Origin: a virus | DNA: 53,642 nucleotides | IMG/VR virus record: IMGVR_UViG_3300020400_000008 | Span: 1-53,642 of that record | Strand: one strand, 5' to 3' | The notes under the pieces: model-generated | Database searches by the model: none | What the model was told of the DNA's origin: nothing | Seen by the model: only the letters and a program-made list of their open reading frames with translations | Made by a program: the position numbers and the translations under genes | Shown here: piece after piece, positions 723 to 37,264 of the stretch | Position numbering within the stretch: position 1 is the stretch's first letter | Layout: every line of letters begins with the position of its first letter

Positions 723-1308
723 ACAACATGAACACGTCGTCTCCCGAGTATGGCGGCTCGATACCATCCAACTCCGAAACGTCCAAGCCCATCTGCTTGG
801 CCATGAGTTCAACCTGCTTCTCATGATCGTAGATGGGGACCTCTGACCTCTTCGCCAGTTCGATCGCCTTGTCCTGATCGATCATCCCCTGCTTGGTCAT
901 CTGCATGACGACCATCACAGCCTCGGTCGAGATGCCCTCGCCGTACACCATGCTCATCGGTCCCTTGACCGTGATCAACGGCTTGGCCCTGTCAGCGTTC
1001 ACCGCTATCTCCAGCCCCGCTAGGATGCTGGGGTGTACTCCTGTCTCAGAAGAAATGTCCTGAATGAGCATCTGCCAGCCCACGATGTCGAGCGGCTCCT
1101 CGTTGATCATCATCAGGCTCTGGTTTATCCAAGCCGCATGCTGTGACATGCTGTCCTGTACGATTGACTGGAGCGTGTCCAGCGTGTCCATGCGGGAGAG
1201 CATGTAGGTCCAAGTCCTGTCGGGTATCCTCATGCCGTCGACCTGCTTGGCGACGGTGCCGAGATACTCCAGTGCGTACTCGATGGTGCTGTCAATTACC
1301 TTGCTCAT
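721..1308 (-). CDS. Hypothetical protein, 195 aa
   Basis: Not recognised. It is acidic and Met-rich, apparently helical, with no Cys cluster or membrane segment. I place the start at the ATG 1306-1308 (MSKVIDST), which overlaps the stop of the following small gene; the longer open frame upstream has GC-skewed, low-complexity shadow sequence. It is the last gene of the DUF932 operon, and its stop abuts promoter box 1 of the next unit. Confidence 0.8.
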   Translation of the reverse strand: MSKVIDSTIEYALEYLGTVAKQVDGMRIPDRTWTYMLSRMDTLDTLQSIVQDSMSQHAAWINQSLMMINEEPLDIVGWQMLIQDISSETGVHPSILAGLEIAVNADRAKPLITVKGPMSMVYGEGISTEAVMVVMQMTKQGMIDQDKAIELAKRSEVPIYDHEKQVELMAKQMGLDVSELDGIEPPYSGDDVFML

Positions 1309-1505
1309 TCTTCCTCGCCCCTGTAGTGCATGAAGTTCGACATGTAATTCTCGTTGACTCTGATCGTCCTGTCGTCCCACGCGAGCGTGTAGATGCTGAT
1401 GGTCTTCTTCCCATCGACCTTCATCCTCTCTTCGTCCACGATGACATACATCTCACCGGTGTACACGTTTGCCACGGTGTCTGTTATCATCCACTTTCGT
1501 ATCAT
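1305..1505 (-). CDS. Small hypothetical protein, 66 aa
   Basis: Not recognised. It reads MIRKWMITDTVANVYTGEMY and onward, a beta-rich pattern with alternating hydrophobic residues and no Cys. The ATG at 1503-1505 shares a base with the stop of the 58-residue gene upstream (TAATG), and its stop overlaps the next ATG, so the three are translationally coupled. Confidence 0.75.
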   Translation of the reverse strand: MIRKWMITDTVANVYTGEMYVIVDEERMKVDGKKTISIYTLAWDDRTIRVNENYMSNFMHYRGEEE

Positions 1506-1681
1506 TACTCTTCCTCCTCTTCTATCTCTGCATTTTCCATGTCCCTCTCGGTTCCAAAGGCCTCGATGAACCACAGGTAGTACCCCACGTCCTGCAGTCG
1601 GTCCAGTGCCTCTCTCCCCTCGTAGGCCAGTGCCCCGGCCATCTTGCTAAGTTGGTGCATCAATTTCTCTTCTGTATTCAT
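1505..1681 (-). CDS. Small hypothetical protein, 58 aa
   Basis: An open frame that fills the gap between its neighbours: MNTEEKLMHQLSKMAGALAY followed by a helical middle and a Glu-only C-terminus (EIEEEEE). The ATG at 1679-1681 overlaps the stop of the zinc-pair gene and its TAA overlaps the next ATG. Perfect nesting in the operon is the main evidence that it is a gene; the function is unknown. Confidence 0.7.
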   Translation of the reverse strand: MNTEEKLMHQLSKMAGALAYEGREALDRLQDVGYYLWFIEAFGTERDMENAEIEEEEE

Positions 1682-1968
1682 TCCTCATTCACCTCATCAT
1701 TACTCTCAGGTAGTAGTACTGGTGCTTGGTCGGCACCAAATTGGTACGACCACTCCACGCCACAGTCCTTGCACCTGAGATTCAACTCGTGGACGTGGGT
1801 GAAGGTGCCGTCCCTCCCGGCCCACTCCCAGTCGTGCCAGTCTCGTGTGGAGCACTTCTCCATCGTCTTCAGTTGGTTGTACTCCTGCTCGAGGGTAGTC
1901 GCCTCGTTCGTCAGTTCGTACATCTTCATCTCCAGTTCCGCTATCTTCTCGTTCACGTTGTATGTCAT
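1678..1968 (-). CDS. Small protein with coiled coil and CxxC
   Basis: 96 residues from the ATG 1966-1968 (MTYNVNEKIAELEMKMYELT). Residues about 8-45 form a heptad-like coiled coil; the C-terminal half has Cys, an HDWEW stretch, two further His and C-K-D-C-G-V-E-W, which may form a zinc-ribbon-like site. The function is unknown. Start and stop both overlap neighbours. Confidence 0.75.
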   Translation of the reverse strand: MTYNVNEKIAELEMKMYELTNEATTLEQEYNQLKTMEKCSTRDWHDWEWAGRDGTFTHVHELNLRCKDCGVEWSYQFGADQAPVLLPESNDEVNEE

Positions 1969-2597
1969 GCAACCACCTCGCCCTTGTGCTCCCTGCCCTC
2001 GGAGTATATCTTGTAGCACATCTCCCTCAAGCCCGCTGCCACTGCGAAGACGCTTGGCCAGTCATCAAAGCCGGGGACTTCGTTCCTGCAATATGTCTGG
2101 GGGTCATCGATCGAACCCCACATCTCCACTGTGATGGACTCGTGCACCCACTCGCCCTCCTTCACTCTCTCCAGATCGTCATACGCGTTGTCCATGTCAT
2201 ACTCAGCATAACTCATCTCGTCGTGGGCATCTTCCACATCGTCCTCATCTGCATCCTCGTCCTTGTCCAACTTCTTCCAGATGTCCTCCTTGTCACAATA
2301 GGTACTCAAGGCGGCATCGTACTTCTCCTCCGCCTCCTTCACCTTCTCCTCATCGACATGATTCCACTCGACGTCAAAGCACACCTCGCGGGGGAGTAAC
2401 TCGTGGTCCCCATACCAGACACCACCTGACAGATGGAACCCATCGACCTCATGCGACCAATCGAAGTCACCACTGTCAGGCGATCCCATCTTCACCTTCA
2501 TGTCACGAACAGTGAACCTGTGCTCCCATTCGCCATCTACCTTGTACGTTCTCAGTTCCTCGCTCCAGTGTCTTCCTTCGTATCTCTCTTCGCTCAT
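1965..2597 (-). CDS. Acidic hypothetical protein, 210 aa
   Basis: Not recognised. It is strongly acidic (Asp/Glu-rich in the middle, including a long D/E run around residue 115) with many Trp and Tyr; the first 80 residues look beta-rich and the rest helical. Extreme acidity is typical of DNA-mimic or host-takeover proteins of phages, but that is only a possibility here. It is coupled by a 4-nt overlap to both neighbours. Confidence 0.8.
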   Translation of the reverse strand: MSEERYEGRHWSEELRTYKVDGEWEHRFTVRDMKVKMGSPDSGDFDWSHEVDGFHLSGGVWYGDHELLPREVCFDVEWNHVDEEKVKEAEEKYDAALSTYCDKEDIWKKLDKDEDADEDDVEDAHDEMSYAEYDMDNAYDDLERVKEGEWVHESITVEMWGSIDDPQTYCRNEVPGFDDWPSVFAVAAGLREMCYKIYSEGREHKGEVVA

Positions 2598-2776
2598 TCT
2601 ATCACTTCTCCTGTATATTCATCAGTGTTGTATTCCTGCTCCCATACTGGGTCGCTTATGCTGTGCTCCTGCAGCCGCTCGAGCCTCATGGTGTTCATCT
2701 TCTGAAGGGTGTCGACGAGGCGTTGCAGCCTGCCGACCTCCTTCTTCGCCTTGGCGAAGGCTATGTGTACGCTCAT
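2594..2776 (-). CDS. Small coiled-coil protein, 60 aa
   Basis: Starts at the ATG 2774-2776 (MSVHIAFAKAKKEVGRLQRL), which overlaps the stop of the DUF932 gene. The centre is a continuous amphipathic helix with Leu/Met heptads and the end is acidic. The function is unknown. Confidence 0.75.
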   Translation of the reverse strand: MSVHIAFAKAKKEVGRLQRLVDTLQKMNTMRLERLQEHSISDPVWEQEYNTDEYTGEVIE

Positions 2777-3783
2777 TGCATCACCACGCTCATGGCCTTG
2801 TTCCATGCGACCTGCTTCTTCTTGGCGAGGGCGCCGAACAGAGCCGACTCCTGCCTCTTCTCGCTGACCTTGCCGTCAGCCAGTTTGGTGAAGTCGTAGT
2901 CGATGGCCTCGGTGATCGTGTTGTACGCCTGCCAGACCGTGCCGGTCATGAGACCGACGTTGTTGGTGTCGTTGTACAACCGCTCCACCACGTTGTCCAG
3001 TAGGTTGCGGCCACGTGTCTTGAGGTTGCCATCCTCGTCCTTCTCGATACCTAGGACGTCGATGAAGTAGGTCTCCATCTCGCCCATGGTCATCTGTGTG
3101 CTGAGCATGCCGTTCGCCATCTCGCCCCACTGCACGAAGTCGGTGTTGACCATGCCGAGTGCGTCCCTCGCTAGGTCGACCTTGTCCATCATGTTCCTCG
3201 TGTGGCGGATGTTGTATCCCTGCCCGCGCCCTTGGTTGAGGGCCCAAGTGAGTGTGTTCTGGCACACCACCCTGATTGGTGTCTGTAGTATCTTGACGGC
3301 ACCGCTGCCGTCGTGCGTGTTGCTGATGAGGATGAACTGGTCCACCACATCCTTGCCACCGATGAGGATGCTCTTTGGCATACGTGCCAGCAGCCACACC
3401 GTCGCACCGTTGCGGAGCGCACCGCACACCTCGATCTTCGCCTCGTCCGTCTGTGTCAGGTCGTCGACGAATGCGAAGGCATCATCGTTCTGTAGAGCAG
3501 TCCACACCCGTCCCACGCTCTTGCCACCACGGCTGAGTGGGATGAGTCCGCCTTCCTCGTCTCTCCTGAACACGCCGAAGGTGTCAGGCACACGTACTGG
3601 GTTGCCGTCCTCCTCGATCGCCCACAGTGGAAGTTTCTCCACCTTCCAGTCCAGATGCGCCATCTCCAGCGCCTCTGCTGAGGTCATCAGGCCCTTCGCC
3701 TGTTGACCCAATCCGTGCCACGGGGTGTTGCCCGTCCACGCTGTCATCATCTGTCCGCTTGTTGTTTGTGCAATTCCATGCAT
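2773..3783 (-). CDS. DUF932 / phage-plasmid-like protein
   Basis: 336 residues from the ATG 3781-3783; an ATG 9 nt upstream (3792) is also open, but the inner one keeps the spacing to the promoter seen in other units. The N-terminal W-T-G-N-T-P-W-H-G-L-G-Q, the W-x-A-L-Q-N-D-D-A-F-A-F-V-D block, and the V-V-C-Q-N-T-L-T-W-A-L followed by I-R-H-T are signature features of the DUF932 family (the 'phage/plasmid primase-like' TIGR03299 group), common in phages, plasmids and archaeal viruses; its biochemical role is unknown. It leads an operon of seven genes, so it is probably early and abundant. Confidence 0.9.
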   Translation of the reverse strand: MHGIAQTTSGQMMTAWTGNTPWHGLGQQAKGLMTSAEALEMAHLDWKVEKLPLWAIEEDGNPVRVPDTFGVFRRDEEGGLIPLSRGGKSVGRVWTALQNDDAFAFVDDLTQTDEAKIEVCGALRNGATVWLLARMPKSILIGGKDVVDQFILISNTHDGSGAVKILQTPIRVVCQNTLTWALNQGRGQGYNIRHTRNMMDKVDLARDALGMVNTDFVQWGEMANGMLSTQMTMGEMETYFIDVLGIEKDEDGNLKTRGRNLLDNVVERLYNDTNNVGLMTGTVWQAYNTITEAIDYDFTKLADGKVSEKRQESALFGALAKKKQVAWNKAMSVVMQ

Positions 3784-3800
3784 TTTTCTCATTCCTCCTC

Positions 3801-3823
3801 TTTACTCCTTTAAGTATGAATTA
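3801..3823 (-). promoter_or_regulatory. Conserved early promoter box 2
   Basis: Minus-strand copy of the box with ATACTTAAAGGAGTAAA. It differs from the consensus only by T for C after GGAG. The core ends 25 nt upstream of the DUF932 ATG at 3783, and an AGGAGGA tract lies between box and start. Confidence 0.85.
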
Positions 3824-3837
3824 CTTTCATCACCGTT

Positions 3838-4233
3838 TTATTTTGTAGGGAGCGGTGCTTCCCCCACTAGCATGCTCTGTTGTGCGAAGTCGAGCAGGCT
3901 CTTCGCCTGCGGGCTCTCCATGTCCAGACCCAAGGCCATCCCACTCGGGAGCAACTCACCGTAGTCGTTTGCATCCACGTCACCGTGTATGATGATCCAA
4001 GGATGCTCCTCCGCTTGGTACAAGTCCACGCACACGTAGTACTTGCTCGTGCTGGCTGCGCTCTGGTGCGTCGGCTCCTGCTTGACCAACCACTCGGTCA
4101 CCTCGTCGGGCGCACGTAGTTCCAGTGCCACCCCGTACTCCCTGTTGATGCTCACAGGACCGATCCCCTGTATGTGCAATCGCCCTGCTTTCATTCCGTT
4201 CGTTCTCACTTGTATTCTATTCAATCTTCTCAT
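3838..4233 (-). CDS. Hypothetical protein, 131 aa
   Basis: Not recognised. It starts at ATG 4231-4233 (MRRLNRIQV), overlapping the end of the phosphatase gene by 17 nt; ATG at codon 14 (MKAGRLHI) is an alternative that still overlaps. The fold looks mixed alpha/beta, with YVCVDLYQ and PWIIIHGDVDAND segments. It is the last gene of the unit and may act with the phosphatase. Confidence 0.75.
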   Translation of the reverse strand: MRRLNRIQVRTNGMKAGRLHIQGIGPVSINREYGVALELRAPDEVTEWLVKQEPTHQSAASTSKYYVCVDLYQAEEHPWIIIHGDVDANDYGELLPSGMALGLDMESPQAKSLLDFAQQSMLVGEAPLPTK

Positions 4234-5098
4234 CTCCTTTGTTGACGTACTCACTCACGTCGATCATCTCGTCTTGGCACTTGTCGCACCCCACGCCCTC
4301 CTGATTGGGCTCGTGGTGGAATCCCATGTTGTCGCATGAGAGGCACTCGTAGACGTGCTCGCCCTGATGTGAGATTGTCTTTGTGGGGGTGAAGTTGTTG
4401 GGCCACTCCCACCCTAGATTGAAGGGGACATAGTTGCCATACGCCGATCTGCTCACCGGCGGGAACAGGTCCTCGCCCAGTGGTATCTGACAGACGTCCG
4501 CGATGTACTGCTGCTGTGATGCTGCCTCGACCTCGTGCTCGCACATCCTCGACCTGATGAACCGGATCAACTGAGCCGAGTCGGTCCACGTGTGCTCCTC
4601 CTTCGGTATGAGGAGGTGGGCGAGGATGGCCAACTGCACACCCGTCCTGCCGTGGCCACCGACGCACTGGCAGGACACGGTCTTGATGTCCTGCGTCTTG
4701 ATGTCGTAAGCCAAGTCCAACCAGAACTCCCGCTTGAGAGTACGTGGTATGGAGTAGTCGGGCCAGTCGATCGGGATGATGACCGGCGGCTTGGGCGCGT
4801 ACTTGGATATGGCCCAGCCATCGGGGAACGAGAACACGTCCCGCTTCACCACGTCACTTGGGCCCAGCGCCAAGTCAGGCAGTGGGTCCATCCTGTACCA
4901 ACAGCCGTTGCGGCTGGAGCCACCACCGTAGACGTCGACGCCACCGGTGGAGAACACGAGTATGTTGCCAGTGTGACAATCTACCTTGCTCTTCCACACG
5001 CTCTTCACCTCATCCAGTTGCTTCTTCGCTTCCTTCGTTCTTTCCTTGAGATTCTTAGTATGTCGTATCTGCATCTTCTTCTTCTTTCTCTTGCCCAT
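4217..5098 (-). CDS. Tyrosine/dual-specificity phosphatase with zinc ribbon
   Basis: 293 residues from the ATG 5096-5098, with GGAG 8 nt upstream. A lysine-rich tail (residues 1-40) is followed by a Cys-based phosphatase core: P-I-D-W-P-D (110-114) fits the WPD loop with the general acid Asp, and C-V-G-G-H-G-R-T-G (C145 to R151) is a complete C(x)5R phosphate-binding loop. The residue before the nucleophile is Gln instead of the usual His. The C-terminus has CLSC and CDKC pairs about 20 residues apart, a zinc ribbon not typical of the family. It probably dephosphorylates proteins or nucleic acid ends in the host; the substrate is unknown. Confidence 0.8.
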   Translation of the reverse strand: MGKRKKKKMQIRHTKNLKERTKEAKKQLDEVKSVWKSKVDCHTGNILVFSTGGVDVYGGGSSRNGCWYRMDPLPDLALGPSDVVKRDVFSFPDGWAISKYAPKPPVIIPIDWPDYSIPRTLKREFWLDLAYDIKTQDIKTVSCQCVGGHGRTGVQLAILAHLLIPKEEHTWTDSAQLIRFIRSRMCEHEVEAASQQQYIADVCQIPLGEDLFPPVSRSAYGNYVPFNLGWEWPNNFTPTKTISHQGEHVYECLSCDNMGFHHEPNQEGVGCDKCQDEMIDVSEYVNKGDEKIE

Positions 5099-5118
5099 GT
5101 TCACCACTCCTGTTCCAC

Positions 5119-7521
5119 CTAATCATCAGCGTCATCGAGGTGACCCTGCTCCTTCGCTAAATCGTGAGATTTGATCTTCAGTTTCTTCACCAGCCATGTG
5201 AATGACCCCAATACATGTCCCAATTTTTGTCTCTCGACATCGGTCATTGTCGATGAGTTGATCCGAGCAACGTACTTGTTGACCTTCTTGTCCAAGATGT
5301 GGCAACACCAATCGTAGATCGGCTTGGCGCTGTACTTGCCGTGCCAAGGATGCTTGCCCTTGTAGTACATACGGGCTATCTGGCCATCCTTGTTGATCTG
5401 ATCTTGTATTTCCAAGAACGAAGTACTGGGGGTTTGCTTTACCTCACCATCGAGGATGAACACAGCCATCTTCTCGGTGTCCACAGGGGTGGTATTGGGG
5501 TAATCGTCGTTCAAGTCGATGGTGGCATCTGCCGCAGTGGTGATCGTGCCCTTCACCTCGACCTCCTCTTGGAAATGCTGTTTGCACGACGAGCAGTGTG
5601 GCATGCCGCATGGGACGTACTCCGACTTCTTCGGGTACCTCATAGGATTGATACCAACGCTTGGGTGGACCATCACGTGTGAATCGACCACAGCCCTCAG
5701 TGAGGGCCAGATGAAGTTGGGTTGACTGTGGAACAGGTAGGAGGTTTCATTGGAGTTCAACTCCATCCCCTCGAATATTGGATGCTGCCTCTGGTGGCTG
5801 TGTTTGTTCTTCTTCAGCCACTTGTGCAACATGCCGTACTTCAAGTCGGCCTCGGACTTGTAGGTCGCTGTCACCAGTGGCTCATCCTCGATGATGTGCT
5901 TGGCGATGGCGTACACCTTGACCATGTCGTTCATGCGAGTGTCGGGGAACCCCGCTGTCGCATAGTCGAAGGCTGTCTTCTGTAGGAACTTGTTGAACAG
6001 GTGACCGGTGTTGTGGACGCAGTTCTCCAACGAGTTGATTGACGCCAGCACCTGCTCGTAGTCACCACCATCGAGGAAATCGGCGAGGGCACGTGCGGCA
6101 TCACGCCCATGCTTTGCACCATCGGCCCACTTAGGACCACCGTAAGACGATTCCCAGTTGGTCCTGAACTGCAACCTCATCCAATCAAGGAGGTTGGCCA
6201 CCTGCCTGAAGTCCTCGATGAATATCTTCTGGACACCAGCGTAGTAGTGTCTCCTGACCTTGGTGATCGTGTTTGGGTTGCAGGTGGTGGTGACCTCCTT
6301 CATGATGCCGTCACCGAGGACGGCATGTAGGAAGACCGGAATGTCAGGTGTGTGGGTCTTGTTATGATCCATAGAGTGCCTCATCTCACCCACTGATATG
6401 GCGAAAACCGCCTTGACGATCCAGCCAGCGAAGACTCCAGCGAGGTAGGCGACGACCTTGGGGTCGGACATGGGCATGCTCGCCCACTGGTGGAAGAACG
6501 TGGCGAGCCAGCCGAACTGCTTCTGCCAGTGTTGGTTGGCGTACTGCACACCAGCACGGAACTCACTCACGTACTGGGACGGGTCATATGGATTGGCGAT
6601 GAAAGTATTGTCGGGGTCATTGACGACCCAGCCACTAGCAGGCTCCACCCAAGAGTCACCGACCTCGACGTGACCGATCACGTACGGGATGTGGTGGGCT
6701 CGGCAGTGCGCACAGATGTGCGAGAGGAGTGAGCCGTTAGGTTCGCTGACAACGAAGCCGTCGGGGACGTTGTCCTTGGTGATGAACTCCTCGAGCCAAG
6801 CAACCTGCTCCAGACCAGTTGCCTCGAACACTTCACCGACTTCAACCCTGCCGTCCGGTATGATGCCATTGATGTCGACTCCCTCCGGTGGTGGTGCTAT
6901 ACGGACGTGGTTCTCAGCGCCCCTGATCTGTGTAAGGTACGTGCTGAAAGAATTCTCCTCCGCCTCAAGATGGTCACTCATCTTCCACTTACTCCATGAG
7001 ACGAACTCGATCTCGTGCATTTCAGGATCGAAGTTGAGTCCCTCCAAGTTGTAGAACAGTGATCGGTGACCCATCTTCAATGGCAGCGTGATGCTCAGGC
7101 CATGACCGGCGGTGGTGCCATCGTGACCCTGACCGATCACCGCGTACTTGCCCGGTGCCATGACCGCACTGTAGTCAGCGTCGATGAACGGCTGGAGTAT
7201 GAGGCAGCCCTCCGGGTCCAACTCGAGCATCGAGTTCCTGAGCCTCGCCCAGTCCATCAGGAAGTCGTCGGACCTGATCATCTTCGACTCGAGGACGCCA
7301 TGCCTCGGGGTCAGTGGGGCGGTACGCAGGAAAGCGAACTCCCTGTCGTTCCTCATGAACCACTCCCGTATGTGCTTGGGCTCGTCATCGAGCAGCAGCA
7401 CCATCGTGTGGCGTGGTACCTCGTAGGACCTGTTGAAATCTTCCTCGTAGCGCAGCAGGGCCGCTGCCTTCTGACTCCTGATCCTGTCTATCCTGTCTCT
7501 GTTATGTTGCCTCTCTATCAT
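5119..7521 (-). CDS. Large protein with PEP-utiliser swivelling domain
   Basis: About 800 residues (ATG 7519-7521; a GTG lies one codon upstream). Residues about 255-300 match the phosphohistidine swivelling domain of PEP synthase, PPDK and rifampin phosphotransferase: G-F-V-V-S-E-P-N-G-S-L-L-S-H, then R-A-H-H-I-P-Y-V-I-G and a V-G-D-S-W-V-E-P-A-S-G-W-V end, with His of SH as the likely phospho-carrier. Residues about 100-145 (L-I-L-Q-P-F-I-D, G-K-Y-A-V-I-G-Q-G) could be part of an ATP-grasp partner domain, as in those enzymes, but this is weaker. The remaining 500 residues are unrecognised and include a C-x4-C-x2-C group. A phosphotransferase acting on a small molecule or nucleic acid is the inference. 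Confidence 0.7.
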   Translation of the reverse strand: MIERQHNRDRIDRIRSQKAAALLRYEEDFNRSYEVPRHTMVLLLDDEPKHIREWFMRNDREFAFLRTAPLTPRHGVLESKMIRSDDFLMDWARLRNSMLELDPEGCLILQPFIDADYSAVMAPGKYAVIGQGHDGTTAGHGLSITLPLKMGHRSLFYNLEGLNFDPEMHEIEFVSWSKWKMSDHLEAEENSFSTYLTQIRGAENHVRIAPPPEGVDINGIIPDGRVEVGEVFEATGLEQVAWLEEFITKDNVPDGFVVSEPNGSLLSHICAHCRAHHIPYVIGHVEVGDSWVEPASGWVVNDPDNTFIANPYDPSQYVSEFRAGVQYANQHWQKQFGWLATFFHQWASMPMSDPKVVAYLAGVFAGWIVKAVFAISVGEMRHSMDHNKTHTPDIPVFLHAVLGDGIMKEVTTTCNPNTITKVRRHYYAGVQKIFIEDFRQVANLLDWMRLQFRTNWESSYGGPKWADGAKHGRDAARALADFLDGGDYEQVLASINSLENCVHNTGHLFNKFLQKTAFDYATAGFPDTRMNDMVKVYAIAKHIIEDEPLVTATYKSEADLKYGMLHKWLKKNKHSHQRQHPIFEGMELNSNETSYLFHSQPNFIWPSLRAVVDSHVMVHPSVGINPMRYPKKSEYVPCGMPHCSSCKQHFQEEVEVKGTITTAADATIDLNDDYPNTTPVDTEKMAVFILDGEVKQTPSTSFLEIQDQINKDGQIARMYYKGKHPWHGKYSAKPIYDWCCHILDKKVNKYVARINSSTMTDVERQKLGHVLGSFTWLVKKLKIKSHDLAKEQGHLDDADD

Positions 7522-7533
7522 CACTATCTCTCC

Positions 7534-7555
7534 TTTGCTCCTTTAAGTATGAATT
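7534..7555 (-). promoter_or_regulatory. Conserved early promoter box 3
   Basis: Minus-strand AATTCATACTTAAAGGAGCA plus AA. The core ends 20 nt from the ATG at 7521, the shortest spacing of the seven, and AAGGAGA lies 8 nt before the start. It drives the swivel-domain, phosphatase and 131-residue genes. Confidence 0.85.
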
Positions 7556-7607
7556 GACTCTGTATTGCTCTCACTGCTATCACTCCGGCGACTATGACTC
7601 TTCTCCC

Positions 7608-9656
7608 TCACTTGTTCTTCTGGGTGAGAATACTCGCATCGATCTCTCCTGCGTCCACCATATCTTGTAGCAGTGCGCGTGTGATCTTGCTCCTGTCCAC
7701 CTCGTCCCCGCCGTCGAGAACAGCCTTCACGACTGCTCGCTTCTGCTCGATCAGTTGATGGAACCTCTCGTCTATTGTACCTTCGACAGTGAAGTACAGG
7801 GCGTGTACGGTCTGCGCGTCCTGCCCTATCCTGTTCACCCTGTCCTCGGCCTGCTCTTCCCATCCGGGTACCCACTCGCGCTCGACGAACACCACGGTGT
7901 CCGCTGCCGTGAGGGTCAGTCCCTCCTTCGCTGCGAGGGTGCTGCACACCAGCACGTCGATCTCCCCCGCTTGGAACCTGTCCACGATCTCGCTCCTCTT
8001 CTCGGACTTTACTCCCCCGGTGATAGTATCGACCCTGAGTTTCTCCAGTTTGAGTATGCTGACCAGTGGTGCCACCACGTTCTTGTGGTGAGCGAACACG
8101 ACGATGGGTCGCTCGTTGTTCCTCTTGTAGTCGATAACCCACTCCGATACCGGTCCCACCTTCATGATGCCGCAGTTGTGCCTGAGATCGGTCAGCATGT
8201 TCAGCACGTAGCCCGCAGGCAACGACCTGCCGCTGTCCCTGATCTGTGAGTAGTCGTCTCCCCAGTCCCTCTGTCTCTGCCTGTACTCCTTGAGTTCTAC
8301 CTTGGTCGGGATCACTGGGATGCTCTGCCTGATCTTGTCAGGCAACTCGGCCATGACTTCCTTCTTCAGTCTGCGAATGGCGAAGTCCCTGCTGATGGCA
8401 TGGAGTTCCTCGATGTTGCTCGCACCACCCGTCTTCCAACCGAAGCCGTCATTGTATGCGCTGCAGTATCTCCTGACGTATGACAGCCAAGATGAGAACT
8501 GCGCCTTGCGCAGCAGGTTGAGTGTAGTGAAGTACTCGGATGGCCTGTTGGTGATCGCCGTGCCTGAGAGGCACAGCACAGACTCGCTCCTGTCAGCGAT
8601 CTCCACTGTAGCCTTGGTCCTGTCGGTCTTGCTGTTCTTGATGTAGTGGGACTCGTCCAAGATGCTGATGCCGAAGGACATCTGCTCCAACTGCTCGAGC
8701 CTCCTGCTTATGATGTCGTAGTTGATGATGGTGAAGTCGGCCTTCTCGATTGGTCCCTTGTACCCATTGATGACCTCGACAGTGGCATCGGGCATCCACG
8801 TACGGACCTCCTTCGCCCAGTTGTACTTGACGTTGGACGGACAGACCACGATCACGGGCCACTGCTCCTTATGGAGAGCGGCGTAGCCGATGGCCTGTAT
8901 GGTCTTGCCCACGCCCATGTCGTCACCTATCAGGCAACGACCACCAGCCAACTCGGCGAACCTGACGCCGACGTACTGGAAGGGGTAGAGTTCCAGTCCG
9001 GGTGCGAACACACCGGCCAGCCTCTCCCTCATCTCGGCCACGACCTCCTCGTCATCCAACTCGGCGGCATCCGATATGGCGATCCTCGCTGCGTAGTCAT
9101 CCATGTAGGTCTGTACTTCTGGGAGCGAAGCAATCGCATCGCATAGTGGTTGGTACACATCGTTGAGCCTCGACATCAGGAATGCAGCCTCACTCAGTGG
9201 TATGCGCCACACCTTCTTCTTGGCGTCCCATGCCCTGTTCGGCACACCCTTGACGATGTTCCTCACACGGTCACGGAGGTGACTGTCCTGAATCCAAGGC
9301 CAGTTGAGTTCGATCTCACCACGCACGACTGAGGCGGTGGCCACCTTGACCTTGCCAGCGTTGCTCGCTGGTGCGTCCTTGACCATGCCGAGCAGGTTGG
9401 TGACGTCGTACTTCTGCTTGAGAATACTTGCTGCCACTCGTATCACCTCGGGGTCGTACCTGATCGACCAACCACCATTGGAGAACTTCAGGTTGTAATA
9501 TCCCTCGACCTCGCGCAGCCTCTCCTTGAGTTCACCCTGCACCTCCCTGTCGAATGGGAACTTGATCGACACACGCTTGGACTTGCGTGGATACCTGCGA
9601 GCGGTGTCGTTCTTAGCGAACCACTCCTCCTCGAACAACTCGGTCTCGACCATCAT
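7608..9656 (-). CDS. SNF2-family DNA helicase (SMARCAL1-like)
   Basis: 682 residues. The helicase core starts near 220: Y-P-F-Q-Y-V-G-V, Walker A G-D-D-M-G-V-G-K-T (244-252), motif Ia V-V-C-P-S-N-V-K-Y-N-W, DESH (334-337) as the DEAH box, motif III L-S-G-T-A, and a RecA2 lobe with V-V-F-A-H-H-K, C-S-T-L-A-A-K-E-G-L and Q-A-E-D-R-V-N-R-I-G-Q (motif VI). Residues 110-165 with a W-x-x-K-K-K-V-W-R-I-P segment resemble the HARP region of SMARCAL1-type annealing helicases. Such proteins remodel forks or strip proteins from viral DNA. It is the last gene of a long unit that also contains the paralogue array. Confidence 0.95.
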   Translation of the reverse strand: MMVETELFEEEWFAKNDTARRYPRKSKRVSIKFPFDREVQGELKERLREVEGYYNLKFSNGGWSIRYDPEVIRVAASILKQKYDVTNLLGMVKDAPASNAGKVKVATASVVRGEIELNWPWIQDSHLRDRVRNIVKGVPNRAWDAKKKVWRIPLSEAAFLMSRLNDVYQPLCDAIASLPEVQTYMDDYAARIAISDAAELDDEEVVAEMRERLAGVFAPGLELYPFQYVGVRFAELAGGRCLIGDDMGVGKTIQAIGYAALHKEQWPVIVVCPSNVKYNWAKEVRTWMPDATVEVINGYKGPIEKADFTIINYDIISRRLEQLEQMSFGISILDESHYIKNSKTDRTKATVEIADRSESVLCLSGTAITNRPSEYFTTLNLLRKAQFSSWLSYVRRYCSAYNDGFGWKTGGASNIEELHAISRDFAIRRLKKEVMAELPDKIRQSIPVIPTKVELKEYRQRQRDWGDDYSQIRDSGRSLPAGYVLNMLTDLRHNCGIMKVGPVSEWVIDYKRNNERPIVVFAHHKNVVAPLVSILKLEKLRVDTITGGVKSEKRSEIVDRFQAGEIDVLVCSTLAAKEGLTLTAADTVVFVEREWVPGWEEQAEDRVNRIGQDAQTVHALYFTVEGTIDERFHQLIEQKRAVVKAVLDGGDEVDRSKITRALLQDMVDAGEIDASILTQKNK

Positions 9657-10127: not shown

Positions 10128-10364
10128 TCACTCTATCCTCGCTATCGCAGCGTCGTACTCCTTCCATGCCTCGGCGGTCTTGACGTCCTTGTTGGCTCCG
10201 TTCCTGTTGAGGGGATGCTGGTGCGTGATCCTCAACTTGCCACGCAGCACACGCTCGGCCTCCTTCCTCGCTGCCTTCCTCTTGGCACACAGCGAGGCCT
10301 CGGTCCTCAGTACTTCTCTCCCCATTATATTCATTCCATCATTCATCTTCGTTGTCTTCTTCAT
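10128..10364 (-). CDS. Basic hypothetical protein, 78 aa
   Basis: Not recognised. The centre is a basic helix (A-K-R-K-A-A-R-K-E-A-E-R) and the end is acidic. Four ATG codons occur in the first 14 residues; the outermost (10362-10364) overlaps the stop of the first array gene and is chosen for that reason. A start at MNIMGREV further in is possible. Confidence 0.7.
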   Translation of the reverse strand: MKKTTKMNDGMNIMGREVLRTEASLCAKRKAARKEAERVLRGKLRITHQHPLNRNGANKDVKTAEAWKEYDAAIARIE

Positions 10365-10648
10365 TCTTCTTCCACCTCGTTAGTCATTATGAAAAGAGCA
10401 GTATCACGATTAGGACCATTCATGGTTCTGCAGATACGCTCTACTTCTGCTTTCCATTCACTCAACTCCTTGTATGCCTCAAGGAGAAGTGGTGCGTCTG
10501 CGATGAGTTTCTGTGTAGCCTCATCGTCAAGCCAATCCTCTCCGACTAACTCTGCAATCTCCTTGTCATACCCATCCCTCAGCACATGGGCTGAGTCAAA
10601 GTGCCATCCTTCTTTTGCGTGTCCTTCGTACTTGTCTGTGTCAATCAT
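10361..10648 (-). CDS. Array paralogue 1, LIADAPLLLE family
   Basis: 95 residues: MIDTDKYEGH at the N-terminus, a variable Trp-containing middle, then Q-K-L-I-A-D-A-P-L-L-L-E-A-Y-K-E-L and a helical end with ICRTMNGPN. The A-x-L-I-A-x-A-P-x-L-L-E-x-L core is a known feature of small phage proteins (Ea22-like / 'LIAAAPELLEAL' proteins) of unknown function. It is the 3'-most member of the array. Confidence 0.85.
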   Translation of the reverse strand: MIDTDKYEGHAKEGWHFDSAHVLRDGYDKEIAELVGEDWLDDEATQKLIADAPLLLEAYKELSEWKAEVERICRTMNGPNRDTALFIMTNEVEEE

Positions 10649-10942
10649 TCAATCATCTCCCATATATTCCTTGAACAATTCGTAGTGTTCGTTGCGACCT
10701 GCTTCACCGAGTCCATCCCACACGGACTGAATGAAATCACGCAAGCGCTTGACTTCTTCAAGGAGAAGTGGTGCGTCTGCTATGAGTTGCGCAGTTGCCT
10801 CTTTTGTGTTCCAACCCTCAGTCATTTCCGCTATTGGAGTGCCATGCGTGTCCATGAGGGTGTCGATGTCATCCCAATCCCAATCACCCTCTGCGTGTCC
10901 CTCGTATTTCCTTGTGTCAACGTATTTCCTTGTGTCAATCAT
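10649..10942 (-). CDS. Array paralogue 2, LIADAPLLLE family
   Basis: 97 residues with the shared start and the Q-L-I-A-D-A-P-L-L-L-E-E-V-K-R-L-R core. The N-terminus contains DTRKY twice because of a tandem 18-nt duplication (10903-10938), so the protein begins MIDTRKYVDTRKYEGHAEGD. This shows that the array is still changing by local duplication. It abuts paralogue 1 directly. Confidence 0.85.
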   Translation of the reverse strand: MIDTRKYVDTRKYEGHAEGDWDWDDIDTLMDTHGTPIAEMTEGWNTKEATAQLIADAPLLLEEVKRLRDFIQSVWDGLGEAGRNEHYELFKEYMGDD

Positions 10943-11292
10943 TCAATCACCTCATAATCTCCTATTTTTCTTTCAATCAATTCCTCTACAATAGCCCTAT
11001 CAACTTGGGGGTAATCTTCTTGAAGTATCTCCCATATCGCAATCAATTCAGTAGCCATTGGTTGTAACCGCTTGACTTCTTCAAGGAGAAGTGGTGCGTC
11101 AACCATCAGCCTGATGTCCGGGTTGTCCTCGGTGAGGTAGTGATCGCTGTCACGCATCACCAGTGCGATGGTCTTGAAGTCAACCACCTCACCATGCTCA
11201 TCATGCACCTCGAATATCACGGAGTCGTCAGCGCTGGTGCCTCTCCACTTGCCGTCGTTCGTCAGTCCATCGTATCTACTCATGTTAATCAT
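10939..11292 (-). CDS. Array paralogue 3, LIADAPLLLE family
   Basis: 117 residues. The start MINMSRYDGL is diverged, followed by a beta-rich insert (S-V-I-F-E-V-H-D-E-H-G-E-V-V-D-F) and R-L-M-V-D-A-P-L-L-L-E-E-V-K-R-L. The C-terminal helix is unique to this copy. It has 4-nt overlaps on both sides. Confidence 0.85.
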   Translation of the reverse strand: MINMSRYDGLTNDGKWRGTSADDSVIFEVHDEHGEVVDFKTIALVMRDSDHYLTEDNPDIRLMVDAPLLLEEVKRLQPMATELIAIWEILQEDYPQVDRAIVEELIERKIGDYEVIE

Positions 11293-11636
11293 TCACTCAC
11301 CAACCTGTTCATCTTCTCAATGTGATTACCAAGTTGGTAGTACCAACCTGTGTCTTGGTCACTGATGTCCGACCTAACTCTCTCAGCCGCCTCAACAAGT
11401 TTCCTTCCCTGTACACGCAGCCGCTTGACTTCCTCAAGGAGAAGTGGTGCGGAGGCCATGAGTCGTGCATTGGCGTAGTCCTCTTCCGTCCACTCTTCTG
11501 CGTTAGCCATCACCAACTCCGCTATGATGTTGTCAGTCTCGTTAGAGTGAATCACCGTGGGGTGAATGACATCCATCGCATCATCAACATACCAACCGTT
11601 AGGTGTGTGTCCATCGAACATGCTCGTGTCAATCAT
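11289..11636 (-). CDS. Array paralogue 4, LIADAPLLLE family
   Basis: 115 residues from the ATG 11634-11636 (MIDTSMFDGHTPNGWYVDDA), then A-R-L-M-A-S-A-P-L-L-L-E-E-V-K-R-L-R and a long helix. An in-frame upstream start would add only five residues. Domain order is the same as in the other copies: KY/MF-EGH head, variable middle, conserved helix. Confidence 0.85.
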   Translation of the reverse strand: MIDTSMFDGHTPNGWYVDDAMDVIHPTVIHSNETDNIIAELVMANAEEWTEEDYANARLMASAPLLLEEVKRLRVQGRKLVEAAERVRSDISDQDTGWYYQLGNHIEKMNRLVSE

Positions 11637-11815
11637 TCCTCTTCCCTCCATTCTTCCAATTTTGCTAATACATCATTGTTGAATTGTTCTCTTACCAATT
11701 CATACACACCCGGTATCGCCAGCATTGACTTAGCATCAAGTCCTTCTATCAGATAGTACAAAGCCTCATCAAACATTTCGTTTGTTATCCAACTGTATTC
11801 GTCTATGTCAATCAT
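11633..11815 (-). CDS. Array member 5, head only
   Basis: 60 residues: MIDIDEYSWITNEMFDEALY and an acidic helical rest. It keeps the MIDxDxY head but lacks the LIADAPLLLE block, so it is either a shortened paralogue or an unrelated gene that has acquired the shared start by recombination. It is coupled on both sides. Confidence 0.75.
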   Translation of the reverse strand: MIDIDEYSWITNEMFDEALYYLIEGLDAKSMLAIPGVYELVREQFNNDVLAKLEEWREEE

Positions 11816-12162
11816 TCTTCTTCACCTTCCCACTTCTCTACAAGACCGACATACTCATCTCCGTCAGGGAAACGCACAGTGACGTACAGATGTCCCTTCT
11901 TGTGGTAGTCATCCACCGTGACTGTCGGCTCACTCCGCAACCGCTTGACCTCCTCAAGGAGAAGTGTGGCTTCTGCTAGGAGGAATGGTGCGTCTGCTAT
12001 GAGTCGTGCATTGGCTAAGTGCCACTCCCTCTCCTCATGTATGCCCACGAAGTCAGTCCTTGCGATGGTGCAGTCCTGTACATCCACCACACGGAATGGG
12101 TCGTCCTCATCCACTGTCCATCTCTCAGGTGTTATGTTCTCGTATTTGTCTGTGTCAATCAT
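11812..12162 (-). CDS. Array paralogue 6, duplicated core
   Basis: 116 residues: MIDTDKYENITPERW head, a beta-rich middle, then R-L-I-A-D-A-P-F-L-L-A-E-A-T-L-L-L-E-E-V-K-R-L-R. The LLxEA/LLLEE part is doubled, which points to an internal duplication. The C-terminal 35 residues (H-L-Y-V-T-V-R-F-P-D-G-D-E-Y-V-G) form a beta segment absent from the others. Confidence 0.85.
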   Translation of the reverse strand: MIDTDKYENITPERWTVDEDDPFRVVDVQDCTIARTDFVGIHEEREWHLANARLIADAPFLLAEATLLLEEVKRLRSEPTVTVDDYHKKGHLYVTVRFPDGDEYVGLVEKWEGEEE

Positions 12163-13617: not shown

Positions 13618-13748
13618 GCTGTCACCTTCCACGTGATTATCTTCTCCTCTTTCTTCGCACCACACATGGGGCAATACCTCCACTTGGATGCTATACGCAC
13701 ACCACAATGCTCAACCACGCTTCCGTCTTTACGCTCGCCTCGCTTCAT
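13614..13748 (-). CDS. Micro-protein with zinc ribbon, 44 aa
   Basis: MKRGERKDGSVVEHCGVRIA, then Y-C-P-M-C-G-A-K-K-E-E-K and a beta strand. H-C at residues 14-15 with the CPMCG pair could bind one zinc ion. It lies exactly between two neighbours with ATGA overlaps at both ends. Confidence 0.7.
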   Translation of the reverse strand: MKRGERKDGSVVEHCGVRIASKWRYCPMCGAKKEEKIITWKVTA

Positions 13749-14317
13749 ATGCTCACCCCATGTTCAAGCAGGTAGGTGTACTCGCCGTACTCCATCGAGT
13801 AGTAGCCATACATCTGGTCCCTCGCGTAGTGCTCCCAATCTATGTACGACTCCATCGGGTCGCCGTTCTTGACGTGGCCACAGTCGTACGCCCACTCCCT
13901 GAAGAAGTCCTCCACATCCTCGGTCCACATCATCTGGCTGGCTATGCTCTCCACCTGCTCGGCGGTGGGAGTGTCATGCACGAACTCCGTTGCGAACAGG
14001 AACGCTGGCACGTACCTGCTGGCCTCGTCCTCGAACAGCCTCATGCACTCGATGAGGTTCGGTATGTTGGGCCACTCGCCCAAGTGCTGGGACACCCTGC
14101 CGATGTCACCGTCGTAATCCTGTATGTGCCACTCCTCCGGGTTGTGGTAGATGGTCACCGGCTGATCACACACGTGTGCCGCCATGTTGCCAGACTCCCA
14201 CGCCTCCTCTAGTTGATCGGCGTCCAAGTGCTTGTAGGTCAGTCGTCCTTCGTTGTAACAAGAGAGGCAGCCAACGGCCACCCGCTCCCTCCATGTGTTT
14301 GTCTGTTCCATTGTCAT
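13745..14317 (-). CDS. ardA: ArdA-like antirestriction protein
   Basis: 190 residues from ATG 14315-14317, at the standard promoter distance and with GGAGTGA upstream. The order of motifs fits ArdA: C-Y-N-E-G-R-L near residue 25, W-H-I-Q-D-Y-D-G-D-I-G near 70, then the C-terminal Y-I-D-W-E-H-Y-A-R-D-Q followed by Y-Y-S-M-E-Y-G-E-Y-T-Y-L. ArdA proteins are acidic DNA mimics that block type I restriction-modification; this one is also strongly acidic. Length is typical (about 165-190). It lies in a short unit with three micro-proteins, a good place for counter-defence genes. Confidence 0.75.
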   Translation of the reverse strand: MTMEQTNTWRERVAVGCLSCYNEGRLTYKHLDADQLEEAWESGNMAAHVCDQPVTIYHNPEEWHIQDYDGDIGRVSQHLGEWPNIPNLIECMRLFEDEASRYVPAFLFATEFVHDTPTAEQVESIASQMMWTEDVEDFFREWAYDCGHVKNGDPMESYIDWEHYARDQMYGYYSMEYGEYTYLLEHGVSI

Positions 14318-14336
14318 GTCTCTCACTCCTTCAGTA

Positions 14337-34292: not shown

Positions 34293-35513
34293 ATGTGGGG
34301 TAGCGCTTTTCTCACTGACTCCTTCGAGATCATCAAGTCGGAGCCTGAGAAACTCACTGCCCCAATCAGGAAGAACATGTTCTCAACCACTGGTGAGGGA
34401 TGGTTTGAGACGCACTTGGGTTGCTCTGCCGCTGACTTCGTCGACAAGTTGCGCAAGATGAGGAGACACAACAAGGACTCCAAGTCCGAGATAGACACGA
34501 TCATCGAGGACGTCAGGACACTCAAGGCCCTAGAGGTCAAGGCCACACTCGATCACATCCCATGGGCTGACGACAGGCATGACACGATACGCAACCTCGG
34601 TCTCTCCGACAGGGATCTCAAGAGCCTCAGAAGATTCTCTGACAGCAGGCAAGTGGGTCTCATACAGGCATGCAACATGTGGGAGGGGGCAGACGCAGCA
34701 CTCAAGTCGCTCGATGATTTCGAGGACGTGTGGGGCAACGAGGAGCAGATGGCATGGGCGAGGGCCATGCAGAGCAAGACCGACGCACGGAAGATGTGGA
34801 GGTCCACCCTACATCAGGCAGACAGCCTCAGTAGCAAGGACAGGGAGACCATCTCCAAGTCAGCCGAGATACTCGCCATCGAGGGACCCCTCACATCACG
34901 CTCCCTCCATGAGAGGCTCATGCAACAAGGCGCAGTCCACAAGAGCATGACACCCTCCAAGTTGTCGAAACTCCTCAAGATGTATGGGGACGCCAATGAC
35001 ATCACATCAGGTGCATCGAGGGGCACCTTCGTCAAGATGCAGGGCAACGGGCTCATACTCAAGGACCCCATGGCGTATGCCGCCGGGTTCTTGGACGCCG
35101 ATGGGTACATCACCATCACAGGGAGGGGTGAGGCACGTGCTGGCTTCGTCGCCACCGGTGACAGGGGCAAGGCTCACTGCGAGCAGTTGCACAAGACACT
35201 CGACTGCGGTGTGCTGCAACTCGATCAAAAGATACACAAGAACAGCACGAGGAGCCAACACAGGCTCCAGTTCTACTCCAAGGCCGATGTCGAAAAACTC
35301 CTGAAGGGCATCCTACCGCACCTGAAGATGAAGGACACACAGGCAAAGGCCGTCCTACAATACATCCATGAGGAAGACCCCCTTCGCAAGGAGCAATTGA
35401 TGCGCGTCGTTCGCTTCTCGAATTGGAAGGATGATACTAAGAAGGCCGAGGATCTGCTAAGCGAATGGGAGTGCACAGTTGATGATATCACAAAATGGTC
35501 GGAGGGACTTTGA
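34293..35513 (+). CDS. LAGLIDADG-domain protein, 406 aa
   Basis: Residues 1-180 are helical and unrecognised; about 185-235 form a winged helix (E-G-P-L-T-S-R-S-L-H-E-R-L); at about 262 A-Y-A-A-G-F-L-D-A-D-G-Y-I-T-I-T is a classical LAGLIDADG helix with the catalytic Asp, followed by the beta sheet (L-H-K-T-L-D-C-G-V, R-L-Q-F-Y-S-K-A-D) and a helical end. Only one LAGLIDADG motif is present, so it would act as a dimer. It lies between terminase and portal and has its own TATA-like element, as expected of a free-standing homing endonuclease, though the long N-terminus is unusual. Confidence 0.8.
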   Translation: MWGSAFLTDSFEIIKSEPEKLTAPIRKNMFSTTGEGWFETHLGCSAADFVDKLRKMRRHNKDSKSEIDTIIEDVRTLKALEVKATLDHIPWADDRHDTIRNLGLSDRDLKSLRRFSDSRQVGLIQACNMWEGADAALKSLDDFEDVWGNEEQMAWARAMQSKTDARKMWRSTLHQADSLSSKDRETISKSAEILAIEGPLTSRSLHERLMQQGAVHKSMTPSKLSKLLKMYGDANDITSGASRGTFVKMQGNGLILKDPMAYAAGFLDADGYITITGRGEARAGFVATGDRGKAHCEQLHKTLDCGVLQLDQKIHKNSTRSQHRLQFYSKADVEKLLKGILPHLKMKDTQAKAVLQYIHEEDPLRKEQLMRVVRFSNWKDDTKKAEDLLSEWECTVDDITKWSEGL

Positions 35514-37264
35514 TGGCAGATGACGAGAGCAGGGTCAGTCGATTCCTATCCGCGTTGGGTAGGCCATTCCGAAGGAGAACCACTCCCCAGCCACAGATGC
35601 CCCTCTACACGACGGGCATACAGGAGCCGGTGCTGGCTCAGGGCATCACCATACCGGCGTTGTACGCAGTCTCGCGTGAGAACCTCATACTGAGGACCGT
35701 CCTCGCCAAACTCAATCAGGAGATATTCAGGAGGGGGTACTACTGGGAGAAGAAGTTCGAGTTGAAGTGCACAGACTGTGGTGAGGAGTACAACCACGAG
35801 ATCGACGTCTGCAAGATGTGCGATGGTCCACTGAGGAAGTGCGACCCGGACGAGATCATCTACCCGAAGTGGCTCCTCAATCAGGAGAACTCCATGGAGC
35901 AGTCATTCATGCACGTGCTACAGGAGATAGAGCATGACCTCAACGTCGTCGATGACGCGTTCCTCATCCTCGTCAAGGAGTACTTCGTTGATGAGAAAAC
36001 CTCGGAGATCATGTTCTACAGGGTCAAGGAGATCATCAGGGGTGATCCCATCTTCATGAGGATCGTGTCCGACAAGCGTGGTGTGCGTGGTGGTAGGTAC
36101 AAGGTGTGCCCCATCCACCGCGACCAAGTCTCATACCCCGGTCAGGACGATCCATGTCAGGTGTGTGGCTCCAAGATGGAGGATGCACACTACGTCAACA
36201 TGGCAGGAAGTGGCAAGACGCAGTACTACCTCAAGGGCGAGGTGGTTCACGTCAGCAAGTACAACCCATCCAAGTTGTACGGCAAGAGCCCCGTCAACAC
36301 GATGTGGCGCCAAGCGATGACACTCACAGCCATGGACAACTACATGTACACCGCATACCAGAAGAGAAGGGTACCAAAGGGCATTATATCAGTCACGACC
36401 GACAACCTCGAGTCGATGAAGTCGTTCTGGAAGGCCGTTGACGAGAAGATGGAGCGAGACCCCCACTACGTCCCGAAGGTCGGCATAGAGTCAGCCACGG
36501 GCAGGGGCGGTGTCAACTGGGTCAAGTTCATGGACACGATGGAGGAGATGCAGTACATCTCCGTGCGTGACGAGATAAGAAACAGGATAGCAGCCTACTA
36601 CGGTGTGAGCGCTGTTTTCATGATCGACAACGGGAAGAGCGGTGGGCTCAACAACGAGGGGATGCAGATCCTCGTCACCAACAGGGCGGTCGAGTTCGGT
36701 CAGAAGGTGTACACGGAGATCCTGTTTCCACGCATGCTGAGGCAGATGGACGTGCACGACTGGAAACTCACACTCTATCCGAACGAGGAGGAGGACGAGA
36801 TTACCAGACTACGGAGGGACGAGATGGAGGCCAACCTCGCACAGCGAATGCTGATGCTCGGCTACAAGCCCGAACTCCTCCAAGAGGGACAACGTGACAT
36901 CCGATTTGTTTATCGTAAGCAAGCACCAGAGATGGAAGGGGCTCCACCCGGCGCACCTCCTGCCGGAGGGGCTCCACCGATGATGCCACCGATGGCCGGA
37001 ATGGCTGGTGCACCACCAATCATGGGTGGCATGCAAGCGAGGGGGATGCCTCCGGGCATCATGCAACAGGTCATGCCACCATCACAACCCGGAGGTGAGG
37101 GTGTCGGCATCAGGACGCCAAGCGGTCCAGCACGTCCACAGCAGCGATCATCCATGGGTGCTGGAGCACCATTCTCGAGCGTCCAACAGAGGGGTCCAAC
37201 CAATACTCTGGGGCAGAATGTCTCCAACGCTCTACAGAACGCCAGAAGGCCTCGTGGTGCATAA
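35513..37264 (+). CDS. Portal protein with zinc fingers
   Basis: 583 residues from ATG 35513. The core is portal-like: I-P-A-L-Y-A-V-S-R-E-N (N-terminal wing), Y-G-K-S-P-V-N-T-M-W-R-Q-A, I-R-N-R-I-A-A-Y-Y-G-V-S-A-V-F and the N-N-E-G-M-Q-I-L-V-T-N-R helix. Inserted near 90-120 is C-T-D-C and C-K-M-C plus a further Cys, and near 203-225 C-P-I-H and C-Q-V-C, two zinc fingers not usual in portals. The last 120 residues are Pro/Gly/Met-rich. Portal forms the dodecameric DNA channel of the head. It follows the LAGLIDADG gene by ATG/TGA overlap. Confidence 0.85.
   Translation: MADDESRVSRFLSALGRPFRRRTTPQPQMPLYTTGIQEPVLAQGITIPALYAVSRENLILRTVLAKLNQEIFRRGYYWEKKFELKCTDCGEEYNHEIDVCKMCDGPLRKCDPDEIIYPKWLLNQENSMEQSFMHVLQEIEHDLNVVDDAFLILVKEYFVDEKTSEIMFYRVKEIIRGDPIFMRIVSDKRGVRGGRYKVCPIHRDQVSYPGQDDPCQVCGSKMEDAHYVNMAGSGKTQYYLKGEVVHVSKYNPSKLYGKSPVNTMWRQAMTLTAMDNYMYTAYQKRRVPKGIISVTTDNLESMKSFWKAVDEKMERDPHYVPKVGIESATGRGGVNWVKFMDTMEEMQYISVRDEIRNRIAAYYGVSAVFMIDNGKSGGLNNEGMQILVTNRAVEFGQKVYTEILFPRMLRQMDVHDWKLTLYPNEEEDEITRLRRDEMEANLAQRMLMLGYKPELLQEGQRDIRFVYRKQAPEMEGAPPGAPPAGGAPPMMPPMAGMAGAPPIMGGMQARGMPPGIMQQVMPPSQPGGEGVGIRTPSGPARPQQRSSMGAGAPFSSVQQRGPTNTLGQNVSNALQNARRPRGA

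Follow-up and report, generated by a model that had tools for sequence, protein, structure and literature searches.

The window analysed here, the 53,642-base record IMGVR_UViG_3300020400_000008 from a virus of bacteria, encodes a protein (P0001) in which a diverged unit, predicted to be a phosphohistidine dikinase, is fused to a conserved helical domain that we call X. The next gene encodes a predicted phosphatase of the protein tyrosine phosphatase (PTP) fold. Because the same three parts travel together in many phages, they point to an uncharacterised phosphorylation system and not to a metabolic PEP enzyme. We assign a probability of roughly 0.55 to the reading that P0001 carries out an ATP-dependent, dikinase-type phosphohistidine phosphotransfer, passing the phosphate to an acceptor at X, with the phosphatase acting on the same phosphorylated species.

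The fused gene and its dikinase half

The gene and its parts are as follows.

5119 to 7524, minus strand: fused dikinase-X protein P0001, a real open reading frame of 801 residues from GTG 7524 or 800 residues from ATG 7521
6895 to 7491, minus strand: predicted ATP-grasp domain, residues about 12-210 (Foldseek, residue counts and profile ranking)
6619 to 6873, minus strand: predicted phosphohistidine swivel (PEP-utiliser mobile) domain, residues about 218-302
6718 to 6720, minus strand: predicted phospho-carrier H269 (His268 counted from the ATG), aligning with the catalytic His of PpsA and PPDK
5887 to 6582, minus strand: X domain, residues about 315-546, all-helical in the model; a separate gene (phrog_20946) in other phages
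5122 to 5877, minus strand: C-terminal tail, residues about 550-801, with a low-confidence model and varying among relatives

The spacing of a Shine-Dalgarno run at 7535-7528 suits ATG 7521 better than GTG 7524. Therefore, ATG 7521, which the first-pass annotation had given as the gene end, is probably the true start. Residues are numbered here from the GTG; the motif that had drawn attention to the protein, with its His268 equal to our H269, occupies residues 264-284 (residues 253-300 read VPDGFVVSEPNGSLLSHICAHCRAHHIPYVIGHVEVGDSWVEPASGWV). The AlphaFold2 model has a pLDDT of 71 overall and mostly above 75 for residues 1-550. The last 250 or so residues, which mostly fall below 60, are missing from a 531-residue relative (L014).

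Single-sequence searches with P0001 against Pfam, PHROGs, the PDB and related loci returned nothing usable. The lone sequence matched none of the PEP-utiliser models, including PF00391 (gathering score not reached), no PHROG of known function, and no relative among PDB sequences, and a PEP-utiliser HMM built here scored it no better than shuffled decoys. Weak VHS and DUF932 matches of the protein or its family were under the cut-off and were set aside. A tblastn search over annotated phages gave one weak relative, a 569-residue protein of podovirus ctVRi840 (Manatee Spring) with 25% identity over residues 59-284 (E 1e-3), and an alignment of these two sequences led to 17 IMG/VR loci, one contig having a second copy. 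This contig (L015 and L036, IMGVR_UViG_3300005077_000007) carries two diverged fused copies, only one of which is followed by a phosphatase. The fused family thus comprises 20 homologous proteins including P0001, and residue counts are given over 19 aligned members. When the family was scanned over GTDB genomes, no close bacterial relative was found.

Because the lone-sequence HMM score is at decoy level, the assignment of the dikinase half rests on the family profile and the predicted fold. The profile of residues 12-320 was run over 4354 ORFs outside the family, 76 of which (1.7%) are dikinases or His domains. Dikinases accounted for 9/9, 19/19 and 37/39 of the non-self matches in the top 10, 20 and 40, although these are often related phage genes and do not represent 37 independent events. 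E. coli PpsA matched the profile with an E value of 6.5e-4 in a single alignment that covers both the E..QxR motif of the ATP-grasp part and the His, and the stand-alone His domain of locus L119 matched with 5e-5. Local hhalign of the dikinase part gave the right register (E 0.0086). When PDB sequences were searched, PEP synthase, enzyme I and a pyruvate kinase with a PEP-utiliser domain came up repeatedly in the same register with weak E values. PF00391 was the commonest Pfam match among members (4/19, best E 0.0068). In a Foldseek search of the P0001 model against the PDB, the best two matches were rifampin phosphotransferase (RPH; 5hv1, E 1.6e-4, and 5fbs, E 4.6e-4), and the remaining matches listed were ATP-grasp enzymes.

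The residues expected of such a unit are also retained. H269 is present in 19/19 members and is preceded by Ser268 in 18 and by Cys in one, which preserves the G-x-x-S/C-H motif. The invariant positions of the N-terminal half are Q18-K19, R67, P70, P73-R-H-G76, E79-S80, G136, T138, E173, Q199, R201, H269 and G289. Within the ATP-grasp domain lie the invariant elements Q18-K19, R67, the PRHG..ES loop (73-80), DGxT (135-138), E173 and Q199xR201; the nucleotide-site residues K19, R67, E173, Q199 and R201, each found in 19/19, are those of a PPDK_N-type (PF01326) domain. We take them to correspond, in order, to Lys22, Arg92, Glu323, Gln335 and Arg337 of PPDK, whereas the position of PPDK Asp321 varies in the fused family. 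In RPH, Lys22, Arg117 and His825 are functional residues (PMC4844700).

The N-terminal half of P0001 is thus, as judged from profile and model, a short, diverged ATP-grasp and swivel-His unit. The first-pass annotation had proposed a PEP-synthase-type swivelling His domain with a possible ATP-grasp part in front, and both proposals are borne out, the former by the profile ranking together with the fold and the latter by the fold, which is closest to RPH. Its description of the motif as a close match to the mobile His domain holds for the family, which scores clearly above chance, but not for the single sequence. It had also asked beforehand about the His in relatives and about the fold, naming loss of the one or unlikeness of the other as refuting outcomes. 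Neither occurred, because the His is kept in all relatives and the predicted fold is consistent with the swivelling domain. A degenerate, non-catalytic dikinase serving as a structural or binding scaffold would agree with the strong divergence and the failure of single-sequence searches; however, the carrier His and the nucleotide-site residues are invariant down to about 20% identity, and we regard this explanation as improbable.

The X domain

The roughly 500 residues behind the His domain had been called unknown in the first-pass annotation. They include a separate, conserved helical domain, which other phages encode as a gene of its own. Neighbour-gene clustering joined P0001 with a protein of about 340 residues from Stenotrophomonas, Rhizobium, Rhodobacter and Vibrio phages, which is annotated as "hypothetical" or "putative membrane" and corresponds to phrog_20946 (no function assigned). 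The part in common covers residues of about 366-520 (hhalign E 1.1e-12), and the E-x-R-H, GG..W and HN.G....K motifs occur in identical order in both, as expected for members of one X family; the first Arg of the RExRH signature is Gly in P0001. The three signatures, counted over 78 X sequences, are the following.

6376 to 6387, minus strand: X signature 1, E380-x-R382-H383 (E 78/78, R 75/78, H 75/78)
6127 to 6156, minus strand: X signature 2, W457....GG(462-463)xxW466 (GG and W466 78/78)
5989 to 6015, minus strand: X signature 3, H504-N505-x-G507....K512 (H, N and K 78/78, G 77/78)

Seven residues (E380, G462, G463, W466, H504, N505 and K512) are identical in all 78 sequences. Within the 19 fused members, the invariant positions of the C-terminal half are E380, R382, H383, R424, G462-G463, W466, H504-N505 and K512. 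The X domain model built from the 78 sequences is all-helical, with a pLDDT of 83.2 and a pTM of 0.86. It matched no PDB fold (best E 0.75) and gave only two weak viral matches, in BFVD. X is therefore, as far as alignment and model can tell, a distinct conserved domain, and its invariant set of E, R, H, H, N and K suggests a predicted binding or catalytic site.

The large number of invariant polar residues in X, reminiscent of an enzyme active site, also suits a biosynthetic route. There, the dikinase would phosphorylate and so activate a hydroxyl group on a small molecule or a modified nucleotide, X would do the follow-on chemistry, and the phosphatase would remove a protecting or leftover phosphate; the product would be a base, nucleotide or glycan in modified form. 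A pathway in which dikinase activation precedes dephosphorylation is known from HpeHI and PpsAB (PMC12167813), and several carriers have glycan or ParB-like neighbours. On the other hand, no consistent biosynthetic neighbour was seen among the loci and their genomic positions vary, and we consider such a route unlikely.

The partner phosphatase and the module in other phages

Downstream of the fused gene lie the following features.

4217 to 5107, minus strand: partner phosphatase P0004 (PTP fold), likely starting at ATG 5098, 20 nt past the P0001 stop
4757 to 4765, minus strand: WPD loop with the general-acid Asp, residues 115-117 (D117 invariant in the family alignment)
4640 to 4666, minus strand: P-loop C148-V-G-G-H-G-R154-T-G (C148 and R154 invariant in 18)
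3838 to 4254, minus strand: 138-residue gene after P0004, kept in nine related loci by neighbour clustering

P0004 has the CX5R P-loop, the WPD Asp and the Q-loop, with C148, R154, D117 and Q198 invariant, and its family profile matches RPTP-alpha with an E value of 1.5e-12. By these motifs and profile, it is a predicted Cys-based phosphatase of the PTP fold. The same criteria led us to reject the label "thymidylate synthase", which PHROGs and several GenBank phage records give to the phosphatase family phrog_17568; this family accompanies X and truncated PPDK in other phages. A phosphatase lies directly 3' of the fused gene in 16 of the 17 IMG/VR contigs and in podovirus ctVRi840, often with a 4-nt overlap, and in the 17th contig it adjoins the second fused copy. 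The 138-residue gene, which has no Pfam match, is possibly a fourth part of the module in the subgroup of the window only. Further downstream (2773-3792, minus strand) is a DUF932 protein (E 3.8e-47; phrog_1221, no function assigned).

The fused arrangement, with the phosphatase as the next gene, has a split counterpart. X is a gene of its own in phages of Vibrio, Stenotrophomonas, Rhizobium and Rhodobacter, where it lies beside a truncated dikinase gene and either one or two phosphatases of the Cys type. The dikinase is the canonical truncated "pyruvate phosphate dikinase" (PPDK; phrog_18609), found in at least 40 phage records. Among annotated phages, truncated PPDK and X occur in equal numbers of organisms (33 Vibrio, 4 Stenotrophomonas, 2 Rhizobium and 1 Rhodobacter); the other PPDK matches were unannotated Listeria, Enterococcus and faecal records, Bacillus phage G and Acinetobacter records. 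Searches with X gave 74 viral and 8 genome-contig loci, which were reduced to 64 by removing near-duplicates. A phosphatase is present in 60 of these 64 loci and a dikinase in 52, and in 8 of the 12 dikinase-less loci X lies no further than 4.5 kb from the locus start. The gene order dikinase-phosphatase-X-phosphatase was observed in 46/64. The CX5R motif is intact in 110 of 111 phosphatases of the X loci, the exception being cut by a contig end. The module lies in the helicase region in the window and in terminase-polymerase regions in other phages. Of the X loci on bacterial contigs that could be judged, most (L122-L126) have phage polymerase, portal or terminase genes beside X and so look like proviruses or phage contigs.

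In locus L108, a single ORF encodes both a canonical dikinase (E 7e-156) and X (E 4e-19), and a phosphatase comes next; from its sequence, this is a second, independent fusion of dikinase to X. A phosphatase accompanies X in L109-L117 and L128, where no dikinase could be recognised, and in L107 and L119, where there is a lone His domain. L118, L120, L121 and L129 have X but no phosphatase. X is therefore not a mere appendage of the dikinase and may have a function of its own. The lone domains (L107, 2021-2431; L119, 5099-5428) are stand-alone PEP-utiliser His domains of 110-136 residues. No PPDK_N ATP-grasp domain was found in either record, and a host enzyme (a dikinase or PTS enzyme I) might charge them. 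L129 contains two consecutive proteins of 1.2-1.3 thousand residues (1105-4851 and 4833-8822) with X motifs, from a Candidatus Uhrbacteria MAG, with no dikinase or phosphatase nearby.

The canonical truncated PPDKs of Vibrio, Stenotrophomonas, Rhizobium and Rhodobacter phages are already annotated and published, and the novelty that the first-pass annotation expected of a virus carrying this kind of domain does not stand. The available text of three papers (PMC12038007, PMC5834331 and PMC7326821) treats phage PPDK genes as PPDK or metabolic genes and describes neither X nor the module. The TIM barrel that one of them gives for the C-terminus of the J26 PPDK (PMC12038007) finds no Pfam support here. 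In the open-licence PMC literature, we found no paper on a module of dikinase, X and phosphatase; within that literature, three things appear new: the fused, diverged form, domain X and the association of the three parts.

An auxiliary metabolic PPDK or PEP synthase, converting pyruvate to PEP and back in support of host energy metabolism, would agree with the annotation of the truncated relatives as PPDK and with what is published on the Vibrio phage homologues (PMC12038007). However, no PEP-barrel family is matched by P0001 or by four phage dikinases. A Pfam search of P0001 for a C-terminal PEP/pyruvate-binding TIM barrel found none, and the all-helical X sits where the barrel would follow the His domain. 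Because no PEP-binding domain was found in it, P0001 was classed as a phosphohistidine dikinase and not as a PPDK. The strict tie to phosphatase and X would also be left unexplained, and we regard such an auxiliary metabolic enzyme as very improbable. Because phage PPDK is part of a conserved module with the helical X and a phosphatase, the metabolic-helper reading is probably wrong for an entire group of phages, including culturable Vibrio and Stenotrophomonas phages.

Several other genes of the window were noted. A small Myb/SANT-like DNA-binding protein (PF13921 above the cut-off) is encoded at 350-691 and an ArdA antirestriction protein (PF07275, E 8.8e-17) at 13745-14326, both on the minus strand. 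Five tandem small genes of 95-120 residues (10361-12162, minus strand), apparently mutual paralogues with a MID...G...LIADAPLLLEEVKRL pattern, are reminiscent of Ea22-like phage proteins and have no Pfam match above the cut-off. A 1911-residue ORF (38937-44672, plus strand) between the portal (35495-37264) and head maturation protease (44721-46115) genes has only a weak ATP-dependent DNA ligase match (residues about 1495-1579, E 0.0017, under the cut-off).

Proposed function and related systems

In the preferred reading, the ATP-grasp domain would use ATP to phosphorylate H269 in the mobile domain; AMP and Pi would probably be released, as they are by PPDK, PEP synthase and RPH. The charged mobile domain would then swing over to the helical X, which would hold the acceptor in place of the pyruvate/PEP barrel of PPDK or the rifampin-binding domain of RPH. 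The PTP-fold phosphatase would act on the same phosphorylated species, either undoing the modification or stripping phosphate from an intermediate. We infer catalytic activity, dikinase stoichiometry, the acceptor site at X and the shared substrate from these resemblances. Dikinase, X and phosphatase would form one phage module, which most phages encode as three or four separate genes and which is partly fused in the window. Counting against this mechanism, the ATP-grasp domain is short, diverged and without the conserved Asp321, and kinase and phosphatase could act on different substrates. That P0001 modifies a host molecule, as the first-pass annotation had suggested, is possible but unsupported.

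A protein target, from host or phage, would make the module a regulatory pair of His kinase and phosphatase, with X as the target docking domain, a version that overlaps the preferred reading. VadK, a truncated PPDK, is a protein-interacting His kinase that autophosphorylates its His (PMC13400623), and P0004 is closest to classical protein tyrosine phosphatases. However, PTP-fold enzymes also use glycans and lipids, and small-molecule acceptors are more common among the precedents (RPH, HpeHI and glucan water dikinase); we consider a regulatory pair somewhat unlikely. Returning to phosphotransfer at X, we tentatively propose a widespread phage system in which a PPDK-derived His dikinase, a putative acceptor domain X of new fold and dedicated PTP phosphatases would add phosphate to, and remove it from, one particular molecule of the host or phage, with a likely value in take-over or defence escape. 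With four conserved centres (ATP-grasp, His, X and the phosphatase Cys) and both fused and split versions, the module is a testable system.

The closest relatives of the module are the phage truncated PPDKs of phrog_18609 (Stenotrophomonas DLP5/Summit, Vibrio SIO-2/J26, Rhizobium and Rhodobacter), which, like P0001, have ATP-grasp and swivel-His domains, no PEP-barrel match, and clustered X and PTP genes. They are canonical, with PF01326 and PF00391 above the cut-off, a separate X and usually two phosphatases, whereas P0001 is highly diverged and fused to X. P0004 has the WPD loop, CX5R P-loop and Q-loop in common with classical PTPs such as RPTP-alpha but is a compact phage form with an N-terminal C-H-x-G motif.

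RPH is a fused dikinase with a non-PEP acceptor domain (PMC4844700), and HpeHI is a split form (PMC12167813). RPH-Lm (5hv1 and 5fbs), the top fold match of P0001, likewise combines ATP-grasp, swivel His and a separate acceptor domain (putative in P0001) in one chain. However, its order is ATP-grasp, acceptor and His, and that of P0001 is ATP-grasp, His and X; X did not match the acceptor domain of RPH. The two-component small-molecule dikinases HpeHI and PpsAB likewise show split as against fused architectures, together with a non-PEP acceptor domain (PMC12167813); in HpeHI, the His domain is joined to the acceptor domain and, unlike in the phage module, there is no dedicated PTP. VadK (Rv1127c) also has ATP-grasp and His domains without a PEP domain, and X and PTP are not described there (PMC13400623). 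Plant glucan water dikinase and SEX4/LSF2 (PMC12892837) are starch enzymes that, unlike the phage module, are neither fused nor operonic, but they offer a functional analogy, in which a PPDK-type His dikinase is countered by a Cys-type phosphatase.
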